Origin: Sulfuricurvum sp.
GTDB lineage: Bacteria > Campylobacterota > Campylobacteria > Campylobacterales > Sulfurimonadaceae
Assembly: GCA_024637215.1 (NCBI GenBank)
Contig: JAGXFM010000039.1
Coordinates: 1-61,910, forward strand
Reading direction: 5' to 3'
DNA: 61,910 nt
Positions 47,254 through 61,137 of this stretch are shown here, piece by piece. Made by a program: the position numbers and the translations under genes. The first letter of the stretch is position 1; each line of letters begins with the position of its first letter. The notes beneath the pieces were generated by a model, which did no database searches, had not been told where the DNA came from, and saw only the letters and a list, made by a program, of their open reading frames with translations.

Positions 47254-48348
47254 ATGGGTTGGTTTAGTGATGATGCACTATTGAAAGAGGAACTTTCAAC
47301 ACTACGTAAAGAGAATAATGCTCTTCAGAATCAAAATGAAGAACTCATTCATAAGGTTCAAGAATATGAAGCCGCGATAGCTGAAAAAGATGAACACCAT
47401 AGATGCGGTAATGCCTCAATGATGATGACGTATCAAAATGAACAGCTTAAAAAAAATCTTATCGATGTTCAAGGGAATATGGCTTCCTCCGTCTCTTCCT
47501 CAAAAGAGAACATTACACAATCTACAGAATTATTAGAAAACATTGTTGAACTTGGGCAAAAAGCATCGAGTATTTCAGAGACTTTGGAGGGGCTAAACCA
47601 CTTGGCTCTTGAGTCAATGGAGACCGTTAAAGCTCTTTCTGAACGGGCACAAGATGTTGCGAACATATTGGTGCTGATTAAAGATATTTCCGATCAAACA
47701 AACCTATTGGCATTGAATGCTGCTATTGAAGCGGCACGTGCGGGTGAACATGGACGAGGCTTTGCCGTGGTCGCGGATGAAGTTCGAAAACTTGCAGACC
47801 GAACCGATAAAGCAATCAGTGAGATTAATATTTCGTTACAATCGATGAAACAAGATGTCACGACAATCGGTGAGAAATTTGAGCAGGTACAGGAGAATAT
47901 AGAAGAATCCAACGAATCGATTGGAAGCTTTAATAAAAATATGGATCATAATGTGATGATGATGCGTGAAACTTTCAAAAATACAGAAAATACAGCTGAA
48001 CAAACTTTTATGAGTTTGGCAAAACTGGATCATATTGTGTGGAAAGTAAACACCTATCTTTCCGCTATTACACGAAAAGAACAATTTAAATTTGTGGATC
48101 ATCATAACTGTCGTTTGGGTAAATGGTATTATGAAGGAGAAGGGGCTGATTTTTTCAAACAAACCCCAAGCTATACTTCCCTTGAATCGCCACACTCTGT
48201 TGTCCATAACTCAACTCATAAAATATTTGATTTAATGCAAACGGAAAGTATCGGATCGGACGAATTTGTGAAAATATTTGAAGAGATGGAACATGCGAGT
48301 GACGGTGTCTTTGCTACATTAGACCGTATGCTTCAAGAAAAACATTAA
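47254..48348 (+). CDS. Soluble methyl-accepting chemotaxis protein with CZB zinc domain
   Basis: A 364-aa chemoreceptor with no membrane helix and no signal. It has an N-terminal coiled coil ([28 protein letters not shown]), the signalling tip [35 protein letters not shown] (about 150-185), and a C-terminal CZB domain (about 254-330). The CZB domain has LDHIVWK and the [14 protein letters not shown] zinc signature. CZB domains sense zinc and, through it, oxidants such as hypochlorous acid. It signals to CheA in the cytoplasm. Confidence 0.88.
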
Positions 48349-48661
48349 TATTGCTTCGATTAGTAGCACATGAGTATCTCTCGCTAAGCTTATAATTCTC
48401 CTCTCGACCCGTTATATTGTTCCGATTTGACACGATATAACGGTAGTTTCACTAAAGTGTTACGAAATATAACATTTATCTCCAAAACCCAATACAACGG
48501 TGTTTCTTATAGTGACAGACCTATGAAAATATCGGATAGATAAGGGTTTGTTTAATTCTCTTTTTGTTATAGTGCAATAACTGTTTTTATAAAAACCGTA
48601 TATTGTGGCAGAGAAGTACTCTGTCATGGGATATGCCATCAACCACAAGAAGGTCGGAACT
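48349..48661. promoter_or_regulatory. Regulatory region upstream of the nuo operon
   Basis: A 313-nt gene-free region before nuoA. It holds three inverted repeats with GTTA/TAAC half-sites. CCGTTATAT (48409-48417) pairs with ATATAACGG (48435-48443). TGTTA (48458-48462) pairs with TAACA (48470-48474). GTTAT (48566-48570) pairs with ATAAC (48577-48581). Two TATAGTG -10-like boxes lie at 48508-48514 and 48568-48574. The third repeat overlaps the second box, so a repressor could block it. The regulator is unknown. Confidence 0.45.
48568..48573 (+). promoter_or_regulatory. Possible -10 box for the nuo operon
   Basis: TATAGT, preceded by a T-rich stretch (TTTTTG), gives a leader of about 85 nt. 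The earlier box at 48508-48513 (TATAGT in a similar context) is an alternative. Confidence 0.4.
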
Positions 48662-49051
48662 ATGGAGCATTACAACGTAGCAAATCCCTATTTTGGAGTA
48701 TTTGTACTGTTTGTGTTAACGTTTGGCGCATTTTACGCCACAACCGTCATTGCACGCTTAGCCAGTCGCGCTTTAGCGGCCAAAGATACTGAGAAAATTA
48801 AACTCTCGGTTTATGAATGCGGACCGGAAGTGACAAAGCAACCCAACCGTATCTCGACGCAGTTTTATCTCTTTGCGTTGTTGTTTTTATTGTTTGATGT
48901 GGAGATCGTTTTTATGTTTCCGTGGGCGATTGACTTCAAACTCTTGGGCTGGTTCGGATTCGTTGAGATGATGATGTTCATCTTATTGCTGGCAATCGGT
49001 TTCGTTTATGCGTGGAAGAAAGGGGCTCTCGAATGGCACAACATCAAGTAA
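48662..49051 (+). CDS. nuoA: NADH-quinone oxidoreductase subunit A
   Basis: Membrane subunit of complex I near the quinone site. The 129-aa product ([14 protein letters not shown]) has three membrane helices and the conserved YECG motif ([39 protein letters not shown]). The ATG at 48662 is chosen over GTG 48605 because AAGGTCGGA precedes it and the length then matches the family. First gene of the operon, overlapping nuoB by 19 nt. Confidence 0.95.
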
Positions 49052-49542
49052 ATTATCTTAAAGACGGTGGACTTCCCGTTGCGTTGACAACGATTGACAA
49101 AGTGGTCAATTGGGGTCGATCAAACTCTCTTTGGGCATTGACGTACGGTCTCGCCTGTTGCGGTATCGAAATGATGGCCTCAGGAGCATCACGCTATGAC
49201 TTCGACCGTTTTGGTACGATTTTCCGTGCCTCTCCGCGTCAAGCAGAGCTTATGGTGGTAGCAGGAACATTGACGAAAAAACATGCCGAGTTTATTCGCC
49301 GTCTGTACGATCAAATGACCGAACCTAAATGGGTCATCTCTATGGGTTCATGCGCCAATACCGGCGGTATGTTTAACACCTACGCAACCGTTCAAGGGGT
49401 TGATCGTGTTATCCCTGTCGATTTGTATCTTCCCGGTTGCGCGCCTCGTCCTGAGACGTTGCAATATGCGGTGTTGTTACTCCAACAAAAAATTCGACGT
49501 GAGAGCGCATCCCGCGCTCAAAAACCAAAAAGGTTGATGTAA
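49033..49542 (+). CDS. nuoB: NADH-quinone oxidoreductase subunit B
   Basis: Carries the terminal Fe-S cluster N2 that reduces quinone. The 169-aa product has the CC pair ([10 protein letters not shown]), Cys in [10 protein letters not shown] and Cys in LPGCAPRPE, the four N2 ligands. The start at 49033 ([13 protein letters not shown]) is chosen over GTG 49012 because AGGGG precedes it. It overlaps nuoA and its stop overlaps the nuoC start (TAATG). Confidence 0.97.
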
Positions 49543-50348
49543 TGAGAGCTTACACCCCTAAAGACGACGTACAGAAAAAACCCTATTACACGGACCGTTA
49601 CTGGGTTGCCCCACAGGTAGCGAAAAGCGATGTTTCTGCAGATGCGGTATTCGCTGCGGATCTCGAAGCGATCAAAGCAAAGTTTGAGGTCTTAGATGCC
49701 TATATCCAAGTGAAGCAAATGGTTGTTGTGATTAATGCTGTAGATAACTTTAGCGTGATTGAACTCCTTAAAAATGAGCTTGAGTACAATCAACTTTCAG
49801 AGATGTCGGCGATTGATTGGTTAGCAGACGAGGGAAAATTTGAGATTTTCTACCAAATGCTCAGTATGTCCAAGCGCAAACGTCTCCGTATCAAATGCAA
49901 AATCGATGAGAAAGAGTCACTCTCAAGCGTCTCTTCCCTTTTCCGTTCCGCCGATTGGTCAGAGCGTGAGATGTACGACATGTTCGGTGTCGTAGTAAAC
50001 AACCATCCGTTTATGAAACGTATTTTGATGCCGGATGATTGGGAAGGGTTCCCCCTTCGTAAAACCTATCCGCTTCAAGGGGATGAGTTTGCTCAATGGT
50101 ACGAAGTGGATAAAATCTTCGGTAAAGAAGCACGCGAGATTATCGGGCCTGAAAACCGTGATCCTGCCCGTGTGGATCGTTACGACACCGAACGATTTTC
50201 GCGTTTGGGGCATGAAGTACCACGCGGTGCCGACATCAGCCAAGGTGAACCGGATACTCCTCTGGTGTACCAAGAAGAGGGTGGAGTATTCCTCATCCAA
50301 AAATTTGACGCAGAAAAAAGCGTCGTGATCTCTGATCGCGATCGTTAA
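49542..50348 (+). CDS. nuoC: NADH-quinone oxidoreductase subunit C
   Basis: Peripheral arm subunit without cofactor. The 268-aa product has the 30-kDa-subunit core [42 protein letters not shown], the family signature. The long N-terminal part (to about residue 60) and the C-terminal extension ([16 protein letters not shown]... ) lie outside the core. Not fused to NuoD, unlike in E. coli. Confidence 0.96.
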
Positions 50349-50359
50349 GGAATTACAGT

Positions 50360-51586
50360 ATGCAACAAGCCAATAGATTACGACCTTTTTTTGAAAATAT
50401 TACGTTTGATCGCGATGACAATGAACTGATCCTCAACTTCGGGCCTCAGCACCCCTCTGCACACGGACAATTACGTTTAATGCTCCATTTGCAGCAAGAG
50501 CAAATCACGAAGGCCCATCCGGATATCGGATACCTTCACCGTGGTATGGAAAAGATGGCGGAGAACATGATCTACAACGAGTTCATGCCGACGACAGACC
50601 GTATGGACTATATCGCTTCAAGCTCAAACAACTACGGCTTTGCGTTAGCGGTAGAAGAGCTTATCGGACTCGATGTCCCCCGTCGTGCCAAAGTGATCCG
50701 TATGATGCTTCTTGAGACCAACCGTTTGATGTCTCATCTTTTCTGGTTGGCGACGACGGCTCTGGATATCGGGGCTATGACCGTATTCTTATTTGCATTC
50801 CGTGAACGTGAGTATTTGATGGATTTGATTGAAGATTACTGTGGGGCACGTTTGACCCATGCGGCAATCCGTATCGGCGGTGTACCGCTTGATCTTCCGG
50901 ATAATTTCATTGCGGACTTGCGTAAATTTCTCGATAAATTGCCGGAAAACATCAAAGACTACGAAGACCTTCTCGATACCAACCGTATTTGGTTGATGCG
51001 TATGGAAAATGTCGGGGTTATCTCTAAAGAGATGGCACTTAGCTGGGGATGTTCAGGGGTAATGCTCCGCGCTTCAGGCGTTGAGTGGGATATTCGTAAA
51101 GAAGAACCGTATGAGCTTTATGATGAAGTGGAGTTCAATGTTCCGGTTTCGGACAAAGGGGACAACTATGCCCGTTATAAACTCTACATGGCAGAGATGC
51201 GCGAATCGGCGAAAATCTTGTACCAAGCAATCGATATGTATGAGGGGACTGGGCTTGAATTAATGGCGCATGCACCGCAATATATTTCAGCACCAAAAAT
51301 CGACATTATGACCCAAAACTACTCGTTGATGCAGCACTTTGTCCTCGTGACCCAAGGGATGCGTCCTCCGGTCGGTGAAGTGTATGTGGCGACTGAATCA
51401 CCTAAAGGAGAGCTTGGGTATTACATCAACTCTCAAGGGGGAGCCTATCCGTACCGCCTAAAACTTCGTGCGCCCTCATTCTGGCATACAGGGATTTTGA
51501 CCGACTTACTGCCGGGTCATTATATTCCGGACGTAGTATCTATCATCGGGACGACCAACATCGTCTTCGGTGAAGTTGACCGCTAA
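50360..51586 (+). CDS. nuoD: NADH-quinone oxidoreductase subunit D
   Basis: The 49-kDa-type subunit that forms the quinone-binding cavity with NuoB. The 408-aa product has [58 protein letters not shown] ([22 protein letters not shown]) and the end [16 protein letters not shown]. Length and motifs are normal. Follows nuoC by 11 nt. Confidence 0.97.
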
Positions 51587-51598
51587 AAGGAGCATGCA

Positions 51599-51823
51599 GT
51601 GAAACGTTACGATTTACGTCATTTAAAAGAGAACTTTGCAGGCCGCATGTCCGACATTATCAAAAATGAAGCAGCACAGGGTGAAGTGTTGATTTTCTTG
51701 TTTGAGATTGGTGATTTTACCCCCGTGCAGCAATCGGCTGATTTGGTTAAAGAACTGGGATGTGAACTCATGAACTCGTTGAAATTCAACGAAGCTGACT
51801 GGACCATTGTGGTCAAGAAATAA
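51599..51823 (+). CDS. Small NuoE-position subunit, Campylobacterota type
   Basis: A 74-aa protein starting from GTG: KRYDLRHLKENFAGRMSDIIKNEAAQGEVLIFLFEIGDFTPVQQSADLVKELGCELMNS. It holds a single Cys, so it cannot carry the normal NuoE [2Fe-2S] cluster with four Cys. As I recall, Campylobacter and Helicobacter encode similar small unknown proteins in place of NuoE. It lies between nuoD and the NuoF/GltD fusion, 10 nt from each. It probably helps dock the alternative input module. Confidence 0.85.
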   Translation: MKRYDLRHLKENFAGRMSDIIKNEAAQGEVLIFLFEIGDFTPVQQSADLVKELGCELMNSLKFNEADWTIVVKK

Positions 51824-51832
51824 GGAAACGGT

Positions 51833-53869
51833 GTGAGTAAAGTCTATTTCTCCACGTGGCGGGGTGAGCAAATTAACAACATCGGTAAAGCTGACGATGC
51901 TTGGGAAAATTCTGCTTATAACCTTCCGTTGGAATACAACGAACATGCCCATTCCAAAGCGTTTATCGGTTGGGACGGTGTAGCACTGTTTAATCCCGAT
52001 GTGGATGTTGTTCGTTTAGCGACGGAATACGCAGCGCAATATCAGGTCTACTCCGAAGCATGCGGACGCTGTGCACCGGGTCGATGGGGCGGACGTATTT
52101 TATACGATTTGCTTGATAAAATCGCGCGCGGTGAAGGTGCCCTTTCAGATATGGAGCATCTCAAAGAGGTTTCCCGTACGATGCAGGAAACTTCTAAATG
52201 TGAAATTGGAAAAACGGTTCCTACTCCTTTGCTTGATCTTATGACTCACTTTGAGTCTGAGTTTATCGCATGTATCGAGAACCAAAAACCTTCCAAGCAT
52301 TATCATTTGGAAGATACCAGCTATATCGCGAAGATCACTGCGCCGTGCATGGATGCGTGTCCGGCACATGTCGATATTCCGGCCTACATCGAGGGTGTTC
52401 GCGATTTGCGCTTTGATGATTCACTGATGGCGACTCGTCAAACAATGCCCTTAGCGCATACCTGTGGACGTGTCTGTCCCCATCCGTGTGAAACTGAGTG
52501 CCGCCGTACAAACCTTGACGAGCCGATTTCGATCATGGAACTCAAACGTCTGGGTGCTGATTATGAGACCAATCATGGATTTGGATTCTTTCATCCGAGC
52601 GAGAAAAAAACTTCACTCGGTAAAAAAGTAGCCGTTATCGGTGCAGGTCCTGCGGGACTTACGGGAGCGTATTATTTAGCATTAGACGGTATCGATGTGG
52701 ATGTGTATGAAGAGCTTCCGGTTCTCGGCGGTGAAGTAGCCGTCGGGGTACCGGAATATCGGATGCCGATTGATAAATATAACCAAGACATTGAAGCGGT
52801 ACGCTCTTTAGGGGTTAATTTTATCACGAACACCAAAGTGACCGCCGATATGATGCGTCAATTTGAAAATGAGTATGATGCGACATTGATTGCTACGGGT
52901 ACCCGTATCTCGAAAAAAGTCTATTGTGATAACGAGCGTCCTGAGATCCAAGGATACTGGGGTGCCATCGACTTTTTGGATAAAGTAAACCTCCAAGTTA
53001 AATACGACATTATGGTTCCCGAAGCCGATCAAAAACGTCATATGCTTCCAACAGATTTTGTCGACTTGAGTGGTAAAACCTTGGTCTGTGTGGGTGGAGG
53101 ATTTACCTCTATGGACGTTGTCCGCTGTGCGATCCGTGCAAACGCCAAAAAAGTGGTGATGTTGTACCGTCGTGATGAAGCGACGATTATTAAAAATACA
53201 ACGTACGAAGAGTACCATGAAGCGGTCGAAGAGGGTGTTGAGTTTATTTTTCACTCTGCCGTTGCGAAGATGAATGATGAGAATGATGTTCTTAAATCCC
53301 TAATAGTGGACCGTTTCGAATTGGTTCCCGATCCGAACGGCGGACGTCCAACGTTGGAAAAAGTCGAAGGGGCGAGTTTTGAGATGGAGTGTGATTATCT
53401 CATCCCGGCCGTTTCTCAAAGTGCCGATTTGAAACTGATCCCTGAAGAGTGGGAGATTGAGCGCACTTCATGGGCGACAATCAAAACGAACGGGAAAGAT
53501 TATATGACCTCACGTAAAGGGATTTTTGCAGCGGGAGATTGTGAATACGGACCAATGACGATTGTTAATGCGGTCGGTCAAGCAAAACGTGCCGCCTCAG
53601 TGATATCACGTTATGTACAAAGCAGTGAGATCACATTGAGTAATGATGAGATTATGGAAGATCACCTTCGTAAGCTTAAGGTCTATAATAAAAAAGAGAA
53701 GATTGTCGGTTGGCTTCCGGGTCTGCCGAGGGCGCACAGTGAAGTCCTCACCGTCGATGAGCGGCGTGACAATAATCGTGAAGTGAAATACGGCTTTACC
53801 CAAGAAGAGGCATTAGCCGAAGCGGAGCGCTGTATGCGCTGTTATTACATCGCGATGATCGCACATTAA
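51833..53869 (+). CDS. NuoF-like Fe-S / GltD-like FAD-NAD(P) fusion protein of complex I
   Basis: A 678-aa protein from a GTG start. Residues about 70-150 resemble the NuoF C-terminal N3-cluster region: C77, C80 and C123 are present, but the third Cys of the CxxCxxC is Gly83. Residues about 165-680 are a GltD/NfnB-like oxidoreductase: Cys motifs C172-C176 and C211-C215-C219-C223, FAD site VIGAGPAGLTGAY (268-280) and NAD(P) site CVGGGFTSMD (419-428). The NuoF flavin/NADH Rossmann part is absent. It likely feeds electrons into NuoG; donor unknown. Confidence 0.88.
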   Translation: MSKVYFSTWRGEQINNIGKADDAWENSAYNLPLEYNEHAHSKAFIGWDGVALFNPDVDVVRLATEYAAQYQVYSEACGRCAPGRWGGRILYDLLDKIARGEGALSDMEHLKEVSRTMQETSKCEIGKTVPTPLLDLMTHFESEFIACIENQKPSKHYHLEDTSYIAKITAPCMDACPAHVDIPAYIEGVRDLRFDDSLMATRQTMPLAHTCGRVCPHPCETECRRTNLDEPISIMELKRLGADYETNHGFGFFHPSEKKTSLGKKVAVIGAGPAGLTGAYYLALDGIDVDVYEELPVLGGEVAVGVPEYRMPIDKYNQDIEAVRSLGVNFITNTKVTADMMRQFENEYDATLIATGTRISKKVYCDNERPEIQGYWGAIDFLDKVNLQVKYDIMVPEADQKRHMLPTDFVDLSGKTLVCVGGGFTSMDVVRCAIRANAKKVVMLYRRDEATIIKNTTYEEYHEAVEEGVEFIFHSAVAKMNDENDVLKSLIVDRFELVPDPNGGRPTLEKVEGASFEMECDYLIPAVSQSADLKLIPEEWEIERTSWATIKTNGKDYMTSRKGIFAAGDCEYGPMTIVNAVGQAKRAASVISRYVQSSEITLSNDEIMEDHLRKLKVYNKKEKIVGWLPGLPRAHSEVLTVDERRDNNREVKYGFTQEEALAEAERCMRCYYIAMIAH

Positions 53870-53879
53870 GGGGGGATGG

Positions 53880-56132
53880 ATGATTAACTTTACCATTAAC
53901 AATCAACCCGTTACGGCGCAAAAGGGGGAGAGTATCCTCCAAGCTGCGCGCAAAGCGGGATTTTATATTCCGACGATGTGCTATTTGGAAAAAACAACAC
54001 CGTGTGCCTCATGCCGTTTATGTGTAGTGGAAACCGATAAAACGGACGGATTGATTCTAAGCTGTCAAACCCCTCCGACCGAAGGACTCTCCGTTACCAT
54101 CGATTCAGATCGTTTGAAGCAAGAGCGCACCAATATCATGCGTCTTTACGATGTTAATCATCCGTTGGAATGCGGTGTATGTGACAAATCGGGTGCATGT
54201 GATCTTCAAAATAAAACATTGGAGTTCGGTGTCTCTTCACAGCACTTTAGTGCGAAAGATCAACCGCGTAAAATTGAACATTGGGGATTGATCAATTACG
54301 ATCCTTCACTGTGTATCCTGTGTGAAAAATGTGTTCACGTCTGTAACGAGATTATCGGTGACGATGCGATTACCCTCCAATTTGGGGGATATAAATCTGC
54401 GGTTATCCCGAAGAACAGCGATGTGCTGGACTGTACTTTCTGCGGGGAGTGTATTGCGGTATGTCCGGTAGGTGCATTGATAAGCTCAAATTTTCAATAC
54501 AGTGCTAATGCGTGGGAACTTTCTCAAATTCCGGCAACCTGCGTCCACTGTTCGGCGGGATGTTCATTAAGTTATGAAGTAAAACATACGTCGACAACGA
54601 ATGGTGAAGAGCGTATTTATCGTGTTACTAATGATTTTGAACACACGACACTGTGCGGTGCGGGACGATTCGGATTTGATTTTGCGGTTGAGGGAACCAA
54701 AAAGGAATCAGAATTTGCTCAGGCGACCAATGCCCTTCAAAATGCTAAAGCGATCCGTTTTAGCTCTTTGATTACGAACGAAGAAGCGATGATTCTTCAA
54801 AGTCTCAAAGAAAAGCTTGGGGTAAAACTGTATAACGAAGAGGCCCGTGCGTATCAAAACTTTATGAGCGCGTATGCTTCTATCAGCGGTAAATTAGGTT
54901 TTGGTGGAAGCATTGACGCAATTAAACAAAGTGACGGGATTATCGTATTCGGCGGGCGTATCACTACCGATAATCCTGCAGTGCGCTATAGTGTTACCAC
55001 AGCGGCGCGCCATAATGGAGCAAAAGTCGTTTACATGCATCCGCTTGAAGACGATTTACTTCAAAATGTCGTTACTCAGTTTGTAAAGTATGAAGTGGGA
55101 ACAGAAGAGGGGGTTATCGCCATGTTGGCAAAAACCCTTCTGAATCATTCCGATATCTCAGAGGAAATACGTGGATATTTTGACGAACTTGATGAGGGTT
55201 ATTTGTGTGCAGAGTCTAATGTCGGAGATGAAGAGTATGCTCACATTGCTAAAACATTCGTAAGAGCTAAACGTAAAACACTCATCATTGGAAGCGATGT
55301 ATTGCATCATAAGCGCGCATCCAATATAGCACGCTTGTGCGCTATGGTTGAAATCTACACTGAATTTTCGGTGGTAGTTGTCGCTCCGAGTGTTAATACC
55401 GTCGGGGTTTCGTTGATTTGTGGTTTGGATGCGGATAATGCTGATGAGAATGTACTCGGCTACAATGCGGCAGGTGATTACACTCTGGGCTCACTCGGAG
55501 ATGTCAATCTCAGAATGGGGTCTTTGAATCAACAAGAGGGGACATTTGTAAGTCTTAATTATCACGTATTGCCGACAAATGTTGCGGTTGGTTTTGAGGG
55601 CTACACATTAAACGATCTCGCCTCTTCTGTGGGAATTATGGCAAAAAATACGATTGACTATACCGCTAAACTTCCTACTTCGAAAGGGTTTAACGGCACA
55701 GCATTTGATGAGCTTGGGAATTTTTTCGGGGCGTTTTGGGAAGATAATCGAGGTTATATGCTCGAAAACCGTGATATTGAAGCAAACGGTCAGCTCGAAG
55801 AGATTGCCGATTTACCGGAATTTAACGGTACGGTTGTGTATCGCTGTAATCCGGTAAATCAGTTCAACGGTTATACGGCACGCAGTGAACAGCTTGAAAA
55901 AGAGGCAACTTTACGCGGTTCGGCACAGTTTGCGGCAGCTGCAAAAATCAGTGATGGTGATAAAATTCGAATTGAATTTAAAGCCGAGACGCAAGAGCGG
56001 ATTTTCAAACTTGATTCTGCCCTAAAAGGGACTATTGCTTTGGTTCCTACGTATGACAGTACATTCGGTACATTACATGAACAATATCGTTTTGAAAAGG
56101 TGAAAATTATGAGGATGGGGAGTGAATCATGA
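53880..56132 (+). CDS. nuoG: NADH-quinone oxidoreductase subunit G, copy 1
   Basis: A 750-aa Fe-S chain subunit. It has [2Fe-2S] ligands C34, C45, C48 and C62, His-ligated cluster H94-C98-C101-C107, two ferredoxin-type [4Fe-4S] motifs C145/148/151/155 and C185/188/191/195, and an N7-type cluster C221/224/228/259. The molybdopterin-like C-terminal fold follows without catalytic Cys/Ser. It overlaps the next nuoG by 4 nt (ATGA). It would collect electrons from the fusion protein. Confidence 0.95.
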   Translation: MINFTINNQPVTAQKGESILQAARKAGFYIPTMCYLEKTTPCASCRLCVVETDKTDGLILSCQTPPTEGLSVTIDSDRLKQERTNIMRLYDVNHPLECGVCDKSGACDLQNKTLEFGVSSQHFSAKDQPRKIEHWGLINYDPSLCILCEKCVHVCNEIIGDDAITLQFGGYKSAVIPKNSDVLDCTFCGECIAVCPVGALISSNFQYSANAWELSQIPATCVHCSAGCSLSYEVKHTSTTNGEERIYRVTNDFEHTTLCGAGRFGFDFAVEGTKKESEFAQATNALQNAKAIRFSSLITNEEAMILQSLKEKLGVKLYNEEARAYQNFMSAYASISGKLGFGGSIDAIKQSDGIIVFGGRITTDNPAVRYSVTTAARHNGAKVVYMHPLEDDLLQNVVTQFVKYEVGTEEGVIAMLAKTLLNHSDISEEIRGYFDELDEGYLCAESNVGDEEYAHIAKTFVRAKRKTLIIGSDVLHHKRASNIARLCAMVEIYTEFSVVVVAPSVNTVGVSLICGLDADNADENVLGYNAAGDYTLGSLGDVNLRMGSLNQQEGTFVSLNYHVLPTNVAVGFEGYTLNDLASSVGIMAKNTIDYTAKLPTSKGFNGTAFDELGNFFGAFWEDNRGYMLENRDIEANGQLEEIADLPEFNGTVVYRCNPVNQFNGYTARSEQLEKEATLRGSAQFAAAAKISDGDKIRIEFKAETQERIFKLDSALKGTIALVPTYDSTFGTLHEQYRFEKVKIMRMGSES

Positions 56133-58618: not shown

Positions 58619-59608
58619 ATGGATGTAGCATTTATCATCGAAACGATTGTTAAAATCGTCGTCATTTTATTAGTTTTTTCAGCGCTTGCTGGTCTTGGGA
58701 CCTATTTTGAGCGTAAAGTGCTTGCATTCATGCAACGCCGTCTTGGGCCGATGCATGTTGGACCGTTCGGATTGTTGCAAGTGGCAGCGGATGGGATTAA
58801 ACTCTTTACTAAAGAGGACATAATCCCTCAAAACGTTGTTAAGTCGATCTTTAAAATTGCTCCGGTTATTACAGCGGCAACCGCATTCATGGCATCAGCC
58901 GCGATTCCATTTTGGCCGCAATTTACAGTGATGGGGTATACCGTTCATCCAATCGTCGCCGATATCAATGTCGGTATCCTCTATGTATTGGGAGTTATGG
59001 CTATCGGGCTGTACGGACCGCTTTTGGGAGGTATGGCTTCGGCGAATAAATGGTCGTTGATCTCTGCGGCACGTAGTGCGGCGGTATTTATTTCGTATGA
59101 GGTTATTACGGGACTATCCTTGCTGGCACCGCTCATGATGGTTGGTTCATTGTCACTAATCGACATTAACAACTACCAAGCGGGCGGTATTACGAACTGG
59201 ATCGTATGGTCTCAGCCGGTCGCGTTTATTCTCTTTTGGATTGCGGCATTTGCGGAAACCGGACGTACCCCATTTCACTTAGTGGCGAACGACCATGAGA
59301 TCATCGACGGATTCGGAACCGAATATTCGGGTATGCGTTGGGGTCTTTTCTTCATCGGTGAATACGCCAATATGTTCTTTATTTCGTTTGTAATCGCCAT
59401 TATCTTTTTGGGCGGTTTTGGTGATGGCACTATTGCCGGAGCGATTCAGCTCTTACTAAAAGTAGCGTTTTTCTTTTTCTTTTTCCTCTGGACACGTGCT
59501 GCATGGCCGGATGTCCGACCTGACCAATTGATGTGGTTGTGTTGGAAAGTATTAATGCCGATTGCGGTGATCAACATTGTGATCACCGGCATCGTGATGA
59601 TGTTCTAA
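58619..59608 (+). CDS. nuoH: NADH-quinone oxidoreductase subunit H
   Basis: Membrane subunit joining the quinone site to the proton-pumping arm. The 329-aa, about eight-helix product has the conserved loop YFERKVLAFMQRRLGPMHVGPFGLLQ, FTKEDIIP, and AETGRTPFHLVANDHEIIDGFGTEYSGM. Start ATG follows 3 nt after nuoG2. Confidence 0.97.
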   Translation: MDVAFIIETIVKIVVILLVFSALAGLGTYFERKVLAFMQRRLGPMHVGPFGLLQVAADGIKLFTKEDIIPQNVVKSIFKIAPVITAATAFMASAAIPFWPQFTVMGYTVHPIVADINVGILYVLGVMAIGLYGPLLGGMASANKWSLISAARSAAVFISYEVITGLSLLAPLMMVGSLSLIDINNYQAGGITNWIVWSQPVAFILFWIAAFAETGRTPFHLVANDHEIIDGFGTEYSGMRWGLFFIGEYANMFFISFVIAIIFLGGFGDGTIAGAIQLLLKVAFFFFFFLWTRAAWPDVRPDQLMWLCWKVLMPIAVINIVITGIVMMF

Positions 59609-59620
59609 GGAGGTTGGGTT

Positions 59621-60244
59621 ATGAATCATGAAGAACCATTTACAAACCGTAACGTGAGCGAGTCATCGGCTTACTATTACGTCGATATCGAAACCTATCC
59701 GACTGCAGGGTGGGATAAGTTTAAACAAGTTGTAAAACGTACTTTTAACGGAGAACTTTTTGTAGGTCTTTGGGTAGTACTCCGTGAGATGATCAAATTT
59801 GACATCCATACGGTTCAATACCCCCTTGAAAAACTCCCGATCGGACCGCGTTACCGGGCTGTTCATAAACTGCTTCGTTTGTGGGAGTCGGGATATGAGC
59901 GTTGTATCGGATGCGGATTATGCGAAAAAATCTGTATCTCTGATTGTATCCGTATGGACACCCGTATCGATGAGAACAGCCGTAAAGAGGTAACCGAATA
60001 CAGTATTAATCTCGGACGTTGTATTTTCTGTGGCTACTGCGCTGAAGTGTGCCCGGAACTGGCTATTGTTCACGGACAGCGGTATGAAAATGCTTCGGAA
60101 CAACGTGCCCATTTCGTCATCAAAGACGATATGCTGACCCCGCTTGATCTTTTAAAAGCGGGTGAACAAGCAGAATACCCAGGCTTCGGAGCCATCATCC
60201 CAGGAAGCGACGCGTCGGTCAAAAAGACCCCGTTGGCGTATTAA
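59621..60244 (+). CDS. nuoI: NADH-quinone oxidoreductase subunit I
   Basis: Carries clusters N6a and N6b. The 207-aa product has two [4Fe-4S] motifs, CIGCGLCEKIC and CIFCGYCAEVCPE. It has a long N-terminal part and a C-terminal tail outside the ferredoxin core. AAGGAGG ribosome binding site. Confidence 0.97.
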   Translation: MNHEEPFTNRNVSESSAYYYVDIETYPTAGWDKFKQVVKRTFNGELFVGLWVVLREMIKFDIHTVQYPLEKLPIGPRYRAVHKLLRLWESGYERCIGCGLCEKICISDCIRMDTRIDENSRKEVTEYSINLGRCIFCGYCAEVCPELAIVHGQRYENASEQRAHFVIKDDMLTPLDLLKAGEQAEYPGFGAIIPGSDASVKKTPLAY

Positions 60245-60253
60245 GGAGTAGGA

Positions 60254-60832
60254 ATGTTTGAAGCAATTGCTTTTTATCTGTTTGCGACCCTCACGATTGT
60301 GATGTTTACCATCACGGTTATGACGTCTCAAGCGCTGTATGCGATTACCGCAATGGCGGCGGGGATGATTTTCATCTCGGCATTTTTCTTTATTTTGGGT
60401 GCCGATTTTTTAGGGGCAATCCAAATTATCGTCTATACCGGTGCGGTTATGGCATTGTACGCGTTTGGTATGATGTTTTTCGACACTACGCGTGATGTGG
60501 TCGAAAAACGTACCAGTCCTCAAATCGTATTTGTTTTGGGTGTATTAGCGGCAGTAATGGTAGTAGTGATTTTCGTATCACCGATTGTCTCTAATAATAT
60601 TCAAGCCCTCTATCCGATCCAAGAAGGGGTTGGTAACTCACAAGCGGTGGGTATGGTTCTCTTTACGAAATACCTTGTCCCTTTCGAACTTGCCGCGGTT
60701 ATGTTATTGGTTGCGATGATCGGGGGAATTATTTTGGCCGGTAAGAAAATGGATAAATCATTGACGTTGATGGCAGAAGAAGAGATTGGTTCAATGGATG
60801 AGAGTTTTGAACCGCAAGAAGGGGGACACTGA
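60254..60832 (+). CDS. nuoJ: NADH-quinone oxidoreductase subunit J
   Basis: A 192-aa, five-helix membrane subunit. The third helix holds the conserved GADFLGAIQIIVYTGAVMALYAFGMMFF pattern (the YTGAVM site near the proton path). The C-terminal tail is acidic (EEEIGSMDESFEPQEGG). Its stop overlaps nuoK start (TGATG). Confidence 0.96.
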   Translation: MFEAIAFYLFATLTIVMFTITVMTSQALYAITAMAAGMIFISAFFFILGADFLGAIQIIVYTGAVMALYAFGMMFFDTTRDVVEKRTSPQIVFVLGVLAAVMVVVIFVSPIVSNNIQALYPIQEGVGNSQAVGMVLFTKYLVPFELAAVMLLVAMIGGIILAGKKMDKSLTLMAEEEIGSMDESFEPQEGGH

Positions 60833-61137
60833 TGGAAATTACACTTACCCATTATCTTGTTTTATCCACGATTTTATTTGCTATAGGTTTGATCGGGGTT
60901 ATGCGCCGTAAAAATCTTTTGATGCTTTTTTTTGCTACGGAGATTTTGCTCAATGCAACCAACATTGCATTTGCAGCGATCTCTCATTATATCGGGGATT
61001 TGAGCGGGCAAATGTTTGCGTTTTTTATTATCGCGATTGCGGCATCCGAAGTAGCAATCGGGTTGGGTCTACTCATTGTATGGTTTAAACGTACCGGTAA
61101 GATCGACCTAGACCAAATGAATTCAATGCGAGGATAG
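60832..61137 (+). CDS. nuoK: NADH-quinone oxidoreductase subunit K
   Basis: A 101-aa, three-helix subunit of the antiporter-like arm. Conserved Glu residues lie in helices 2 and 3 (LMLFFATEILLNATNIAF and AASEVAIGLGLLI), which take part in proton transfer. Normal length. Confidence 0.97.
   Translation: MEITLTHYLVLSTILFAIGLIGVMRRKNLLMLFFATEILLNATNIAFAAISHYIGDLSGQMFAFFIIAIAASEVAIGLGLLIVWFKRTGKIDLDQMNSMRG

Follow-up and report, generated by a model that had tools for sequence, protein, structure and literature searches.

The window considered here, that is, the whole analysed stretch of 61,910 nucleotides from Sulfuricurvum sp. (assembly GCA_024637215.1, contig JAGXFM010000039.1, forward strand), ends in a nuo operon for respiratory complex I with the gene order nuoA-B-C-D-X-fusion-G1-G2-H-I-J-K, followed by the start of an antiporter-type subunit gene. 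Judged by the ends of the open reading frames (ORFs), the gaps or overlaps between the genes from nuoB to nuoK do not exceed 12 bases. Our subject is the two ORFs between nuoD and nuoG, whose coordinates (Table 1) were verified and which both start with GTG. An earlier note on this DNA had pointed out that no normal NuoE or NuoF is encoded there; this is borne out, the place being occupied by a 74-residue protein of the family PF16514, hereafter NuoX, and by a 678-residue fusion protein. The fusion is real, widespread and conserved in the nuo operon of many Campylobacterota, among them sulfur- and hydrogen-using relatives of Campylobacter.

The same note had described the larger protein as a NuoF C-terminal Fe-S segment joined to a GltD/NfnB-type oxidoreductase with a flavin and NAD(P) module of its own, and the Pfam domains agree with this on both counts. 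Residues 73-146 match the C-terminal domain of NuoF (NADH_4Fe-4S, PF10589; whole-protein E 6.7e-20, the cut-off of 23.5 bits being exceeded), while the flavin/NAD(P) module is supported by the double Rossmann domain for flavin adenine dinucleotide (FAD) and NAD(P) and by the conserved motifs discussed below. PF01512, the NADH/FMN (flavin mononucleotide) domain of NuoF, is not among the 15 Pfam matches of the protein. When the sequence of the fusion is compared with the PDB, StnC-type chains (in their GltD-like parts) and NfnB match best, and NuoF/HydB-type chains match its first 150 residues. A search with Foldseek using the AlphaFold2 (AF2) model, whose mean predicted local distance difference test score (pLDDT) is 78.9, returned 9bov_A, 8oh5_C, 9n5u_A and 9n5v_A, StnC-type chains coming first, and then NfnI 5jca_L. 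A chance ORF is ruled out by the profile matches together with the 152 of 678 residues that are invariant in an alignment of 68 rows (67 loci plus the window; 63 genomes, four of them fetched twice, locus L001 being the window's own). In some genomes of family code f2 long frames matched the fusion over residues 139-676 only; a different fusion is ruled out there as well, the same N3 domain being present in those read, e.g. L036 and L037. The fusion is more diverged in f2 genomes (L034-L039, L049, L050, L087-L090), and in L036-L039, L049 and L087 its N3 domain and GltD part are set apart by a long low-complexity linker. In L161:10001-12010 the gene is split into two ORFs of 512 and 156 residues, possibly by an assembly error.

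The residues invariant in the 68 rows comprise C77, C80, G83 and C123 of the N3-like domain, C172, C176, C215, C219, C223, C667 and C670, an additional C211, K238, R310, and Y445-R446-R447. The same set is invariant in a second alignment of 55 rows (54 of 80 named loci and the window; left out were L161, whose match is interrupted by a stop, L167 and another 24). At the N3-like site three of the four cysteines are kept, the third position being Gly83 in 68 of 68 rows and cysteine in all ten NuoF/HoxF-type comparators from the phylum. By alignment to NfnB, for which the ligands of both [4Fe-4S] clusters have been numbered (PMC7596348), the distal cluster should be held by C667, C670, C172 and C223 and the proximal one by C176, C215, C219 and K238, the last standing at the position of NfnB Glu117. 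The C-terminal pair C667/C670 aligns with the N-terminal RCLQC of NfnB and with the cysteines that follow the GltD part in StnC-type chains.

Two of these features bear on the electron donor. The Y-R-R motif (YRR) aligns with Y310-R312 of Thermotoga maritima NfnB, where it is described as holding the phosphate of NADP, and according to the same source DsrL-2, which has YRR, uses NADP(H), whereas DsrL-1, which lacks the motif, has a preference or a requirement for NAD(H) (PMC7596348). K238 aligns with K170 of StnC, which ligates the proximal cluster in one state (PMC10482914); this position is lysine in the three StnC-type chains compared and glutamate in both NfnB chains. Since YRR and K238 are invariant, we predict that the fusion is a linear NADP(H) gate, neither using NADH nor bifurcating, and the partner, which the earlier note had left as NAD(P)H, ferredoxin or both, is thereby narrowed to NADP(H) as the best guess. 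As to bifurcation or confurcation, that is, a complex I coupling NADP(H), a low-potential carrier and quinone at the fusion FAD, it could draw on R310, which corresponds to R187 of T. maritima NfnB and to R239 of StnC, and on the further clusters that NuoG1 adds. Yet the lysine that replaces glutamate at the proximal cluster in 68 of 68 rows is that of StnC, an enzyme judged non-bifurcating in spite of the same arginine (PMC10482914), and no StnB- or NfnA-like partner is encoded between nuoD and nuoH; we regard such coupling as quite improbable.

Behind the fusion two full NuoG proteins are encoded in tandem, matching PRK08493 with 888.8 bits (NuoG1) and 1171.6 bits (NuoG2) against a cut-off of 591. 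In most rows of their alignments (36 for NuoG1, 34 for NuoG2) the cysteine sets are kept for the [2Fe-2S] cluster N1b, for N5, for two further [4Fe-4S] clusters and for an N7-like site. In the fusion-less loci described below the N7-like set of NuoG2 is kept in just 5 of 13 rows (window row included). The AF2 model of NuoG1 (pLDDT 87.2) resembles, by Foldseek, formate dehydrogenases and the NuoG of Escherichia coli and Thermus at 14-20% identity.

The 74-residue protein, which had been noticed as a one-cysteine protein between nuoD and nuoG, is indeed there but belongs to a known family (PF16514, E 4.8e-39), and its single Cys55 is cysteine in only 8 of 80 rows, so that a functional role of this non-conserved residue is ruled out. 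It matches PDB 2lxr_A (E 4.2e-21), which is Helicobacter pylori HP1264 according to a review, where that protein is described as binding FMN, having a novel fold and lacking a conserved cysteine (PMC6269979). Of 298 genomes of the phylum 242 have PF16514, including 80 of the 81 that carry the fusion. No [2Fe-2S] thioredoxin-like domain of NuoE is encoded at the locus, where the PF16514 protein stands instead; the genome elsewhere was not searched for it.

A survey of the fusion in Campylobacterota, proposed earlier as a check, showed that it is not rare: 81 of the 298 genomes, the window's own included, have it at 53% identity or more, and the next-best matches are GltD-type proteins at no more than 34%. 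All 81 rank within the window's order, and all 27 sampled genomes of its family are among them. A wider scan of contigs confirmed at least 590 stretches, the best 80 of which all come from Campylobacterota (among them Sulfuricurvum, Sulfurimonas, Sulfurovum, Nitratiruptor, Nitratifractor, Hydrogenimonas, Arcobacter and one Helicobacter), mostly from metagenome bins. Wherever the upstream neighbour of the fusion can be seen, in 144 loci, it is nuoX, and in 140 of 141 loci a nuoG comes after the fusion, the exception being L161 with its split fusion and then G1; some genomes are represented by both a named and an unnamed copy, and the loci are not independent genomes.

A normal nuoE/nuoF pair elsewhere in the genome, which would speak against the replacement, was not found within the genus as far as NuoF is concerned: a search for PF01512 came back empty both for the window's genome (84% complete) and for three congeners (99-100% complete), and a hidden normal nuoF is rejected on the strength of these four genomes. 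In the phylum as a whole PF01512 is present in 59 of 298 genomes; among the fusion genomes 15 of 81 have it and 66 have no match. Its surroundings were read in 10 of these 15 (for G210, one of two matches). Four of them have it next to a nuoCD-type fused gene and hence in a second nuo cluster; in one it adjoins a second nuoG-type gene, and in five a gene of 239-319 residues like the N-terminus of NuoG, as Hox-type enzymes have. At L066-L069 the additional nuo cluster, with PF01512 and fused nuoCD, looks canonical, and L070 is a short contig with NuoF and NuoG side by side; such an equipment would allow separate NADH and NADPH complexes in these genomes.

Thirty-two loci without the fusion, from 31 genomes, were read, and in every one of them nuoX, which is thus common to both forms of the operon, is followed by a gene for a NuoG1-related protein of 230-339 residues. 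We equate this protein with the published NuoY by its position only. By blastp (E 1e-4) 30 of the 32 match NuoG1 and none matches the fusion, L171 and L188 being assigned by position and by eye; alignment of profiles of 12 of the 32 NuoY-type and 13 NuoG1 sequences with hhalign gives probability 100, E 1.7e-56 and 32% identity. These results rule out NuoY as a homologue of NuoF, and the NuoY-type protein is, on sequence grounds, NuoG1 minus its Fe-S part and a middle piece. The fusion and the Fe-S part of NuoG1 are hence absent together in 32 of 32 loci. This joint absence, the NuoF domain that the fusion carries and the operon place that it keeps in the loci read all tell against a separate soluble NADPH-dependent oxidoreductase whose gene is merely located in the operon. 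It could be argued for such an enzyme that the top NCBIfam match, PRK12771, is a general NAD(P)-binding subfamily scoring below its cut-off (365.9 of 516 bits), and that we know of no structure of this complex; we consider it very improbable.

The earlier note had pointed to Campylobacter as likewise non-canonical at the NuoE/F positions. The two arrangements do have the small protein in common, but the next gene in the Campylobacter type is a leftover of NuoG1 and no substitute for NuoF, and that type appears to descend from the fusion operon by reduction and not to have arisen in parallel. A tree of NuoD and NuoH made by a quick method from 72 chosen rows (41 fusion, 31 NuoY) contains 7 changes between the two forms, at least 5 of them required by well-supported branches; in a tree of NuoY and the C-terminal part of NuoG1 (253 columns; NuoG1 from 40 of 59 full-length loci and the window) there are 4 changes, at least 2 of them forced. 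In the latter, 11 NuoY and 13 NuoG1 sequences form one group (Shimodaira-Hasegawa-like approximate likelihood ratio test 94), all from genomes of family code f2, which includes one Helicobacter record, and the other 20 NuoY adjoin NuoG1 of L040, L041 and L158. The NuoY branches are long, some joins were flagged unsafe, and L179, without nuoH, was left out. The trees suggest that the fusion was lost more than once; since a stump is unlikely to regrow an Fe-S part, repeated loss is the simplest reading, the alternative being gene transfer. Genome G208 has two nuo loci (L178 and L179), each with nuoX and then a NuoY-type gene, and G096 (L080), of the same genus code, has the fusion form. Members of family code f10 (L052, L172-L174, L182-L184) have NuoX and NuoY, some also with PF01512 elsewhere; for Arcobacter butzleri nuoEF rather than nuoXY is reported (PMC6682613).

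Taken together, we give a probability of about 0.6 to the reading that the fusion is a peripheral-arm subunit of complex I which replaces NuoE and NuoF as an NADP(H) electron gate and opens a linear wire to quinone. NADP(H) would exchange hydride with the FAD of the fusion, and single electrons would then pass through its proximal and distal [4Fe-4S] clusters, probably through the three-cysteine N3-like centre, and further through the clusters of NuoG1, NuoG2, NuoI and NuoB to quinone, with coupling to proton pumping. The quinone would probably be menaquinone. In vivo the direction could perhaps be the reverse, NADP+ being reduced by quinol at the expense of the proton motive force; for this bacterium that is the least certain point, a guess that we rate only slightly above an even chance. 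The same genome encodes the citrate-binding domain of ATP-citrate lyase (PF16114); this enzyme is a feature of autotrophs with the reductive tricarboxylic acid cycle.

A ferredoxin or flavodoxin may instead be the real partner, docking at an Fe-S cluster, either in the fusion or in NuoG1, or at the FMN of NuoX, with the nucleotide site being secondary. The presence of NuoX in both operon forms fits this, as do reviews and a proteome paper that call the complex I of the phylum flavodoxin- or ferredoxin-linked, and in NfnB the predicted binding site of ferredoxin is close to the distal cluster (PMC6405883). Invariance of the FAD and NADP(H) motifs over 68 rows is nevertheless not to be expected of a vestigial site, and the cited flavodoxin work was done on C. 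jejuni, where cj1575c and cj1574c take the place of nuoEF (PMC4178425), the fusion-less loci having no such module. We find this alternative unlikely, if less so than bifurcation.

Several points weigh against the NADP(H) gate or parts of it. In StnC the clusters of the GltD domain feed NuoG-type clusters directly, and an N3-type cluster lies at the far end (PMC10482914); our placing of N3 between the GltD domain and NuoG1 may be wrong, and because the StnC wiring tells against it, the odds of the gate, and of the broader reading given below, are slightly lowered. With one cysteine missing in every row, the N3 step may be altered or absent altogether. The confidence of the AF2 model falls below 50 in the Fe-S loops of the fusion (171-179, 212-232 and 669-678), the FMN reported for HP1264 has no role in the proposed scheme, the window's genome is incomplete, and the literature ties the complex of the phylum to flavodoxin or ferredoxin (PMC6682613, PMC4585668, PMC4178425). 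PntB was not found in the window's genome, 84% complete as it is. Of the 298 genomes only 3 have it above the cut-off, and 5 at E 0.001, the fusion being present in none of these; its rarity in fusion and fusion-less genomes alike makes its absence here weak evidence. The three genomes, G083, G099 and G135, share genus code g33, and two of the PntB-bearing genomes of this genus have nuo loci of NuoY type (L058, L187).

More broadly, one could envisage a widespread NADP(H):menaquinone complex I with an NfnB-type gate and two NuoG in series forming a longer wire, serving autotrophs as a proton-driven source of NADPH and converted more than once to a form served by a carrier protein (flavodoxin) through loss of the gate and of the Fe-S part of NuoG1, with NuoY left as a structural stump; we put this slightly below an even chance. 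If NADP(H) gating holds for many free-living members, the energetics of carbon fixation in vent and sediment bacteria would need redrawing, the current view of flavodoxin or ferredoxin as the partner of the phylum's complex I being one that cites work on C. jejuni. The choice of carrier would then be directly testable, the origin of NuoY would be explained, and the operon would offer a natural case for asking whether complex I can run on an NfnB-type flavin and whether two NuoG can be joined in series.

As to the rest of the operon, the core of complex I is present (NuoB, C, D, H, I, J, K and antiporter-type subunits), as judged from ORFs, Pfam, relatives and a second contig of the same genome, C48, which carries the remainder of the antiporter-type gene cut by the contig end and then two more antiporter-type ORFs (PF00361). 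The names nuoH, nuoI, nuoJ and nuoK are those we assume from homology and gene order. The true starts of nuoA and nuoB probably lie slightly downstream of the ORF starts. Upstream of the operon, at 47254-48348, a 364-residue ORF resembles, by eye, a cytoplasmic methyl-accepting receptor.

Table 1. Features of the nuo operon and of its fusion protein (window positions)
Feature	Position	Strand	Evidence
nuoA, nuoB, nuoC, nuoD	48605..51586	+	ORFs; Pfam for B, C and D; lengths in relatives
NuoX, 74 aa, PF16514	51599..51823	+	Pfam; match to PDB 2lxr_A
678-aa fusion, NuoF N3 with NfnB/GltD-type FAD/NADP(H) part	51833..53869	+	Pfam, PDB matches, AF2/Foldseek, locus survey
N3-like domain, fusion residues 73-146	52049..52270	+	NADH_4Fe-4S, PF10589
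GltD-type domain for two [4Fe-4S], residues 169-248	52337..52576	+	Fer4_20, PF14691, E 5.7e-23
FAD/NAD(P) double Rossmann domain, residues 264-584	52622..53584	+	Pyr_redox_2, PF07992, E 4.5e-25
C-terminal CMRC (C667, C670)	53831..53842	+	Invariant in 68/68 rows; aligned to NfnB/StnC-type Cys pairs
NuoG1, 750 aa	53880..56132	+	PRK08493, Cys conservation, AF2, Foldseek
NuoG1 stretch corresponding to NuoY (blocks 346-508, 634-748)	54915..56123	+	hhalign and kept alignment blocks
NuoG2, 828 aa	56129..58615	+	PRK08493, Cys conservation
nuoH, nuoI, nuoJ, nuoK	58619..61137	+	ORFs; order conserved in relatives
Start of antiporter-type subunit (nuoL by position), cut by contig end	61534..61908	+	PF00361 search, own genome

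Our searches of the open literature turned up no fusion of NfnB/GltD and NuoF in complex I, no tandem NuoG in the phylum and no recognition of NuoY as a part of NuoG, though an earlier mention in older papers is possible. Among known systems, proteins of the NuoF/HoxF/HydB type share the C-terminal N3 domain, which can be aligned with that of ten NuoF/HoxF-type proteins of the phylum; the fusion differs in having no PF01512 and glycine for the third N3 cysteine. NfnB (NfnL) and GltD share the fold, the FAD and NADP(H) motifs, YRR and seven of the eight cluster ligands, whereas the fusion has lysine instead of glutamate as the eighth ligand, a CxxC that is C-terminal where theirs is N-terminal, and the N3 domain in front. 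Neither an NfnA- nor a GltB-type partner stands beside it (the search for NfnA covered nuoD to nuoH, not the rest of the genome). The StnC of Sporomusa StnABC (PMC7483475, PMC10482914) and the NfnABC chains of C. saccharolyticus and T. sibiricus (9bov_A, 9n5u_A) are alike in the GltD-like FAD/NADPH domain, the lysine at the proximal cluster, the arginine near FAD and the cysteine pair after the domain, and in them, too, the module works with NuoG-type Fe-S clusters. In StnC, however, the GltD domain is part of a chain that is otherwise NuoG-like, and the subunit fed by it is a bifurcating one of HydB/NuoF-like type, while here it is fused to the N3 domain of NuoF in a complex I operon without any such subunit, and Ile182 stands at the position of StnC C114.

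The complex I of Campylobacterota is described as having nuoEF replaced by nuoXY and as likely coupled to flavodoxin or ferredoxin (PMC6682613). Cj1574c, probably with Cj1575c, is reported to pass electrons from flavodoxin (PMC4178425), Sulfurospirillum multivorans to have two complexes I, one of them of the epsilon type and oxidising ferredoxin (PMC4585668), and Nautilia profundicola to be without nuoE, F, G and K (PMC2628731). With this epsilon-type Nuo (cj1575c/cj1574c of C. jejuni and relatives) the operon of the window shares the gene order, the NuoX family and the lack of NuoE and NuoF between nuoD and nuoG, and the NuoY of the former is, if correctly equated, homologous to the C-terminal part of NuoG1. 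The difference is that where the epsilon type has nuoY, the Sulfuricurvum operon has the fusion and a full NuoG1.

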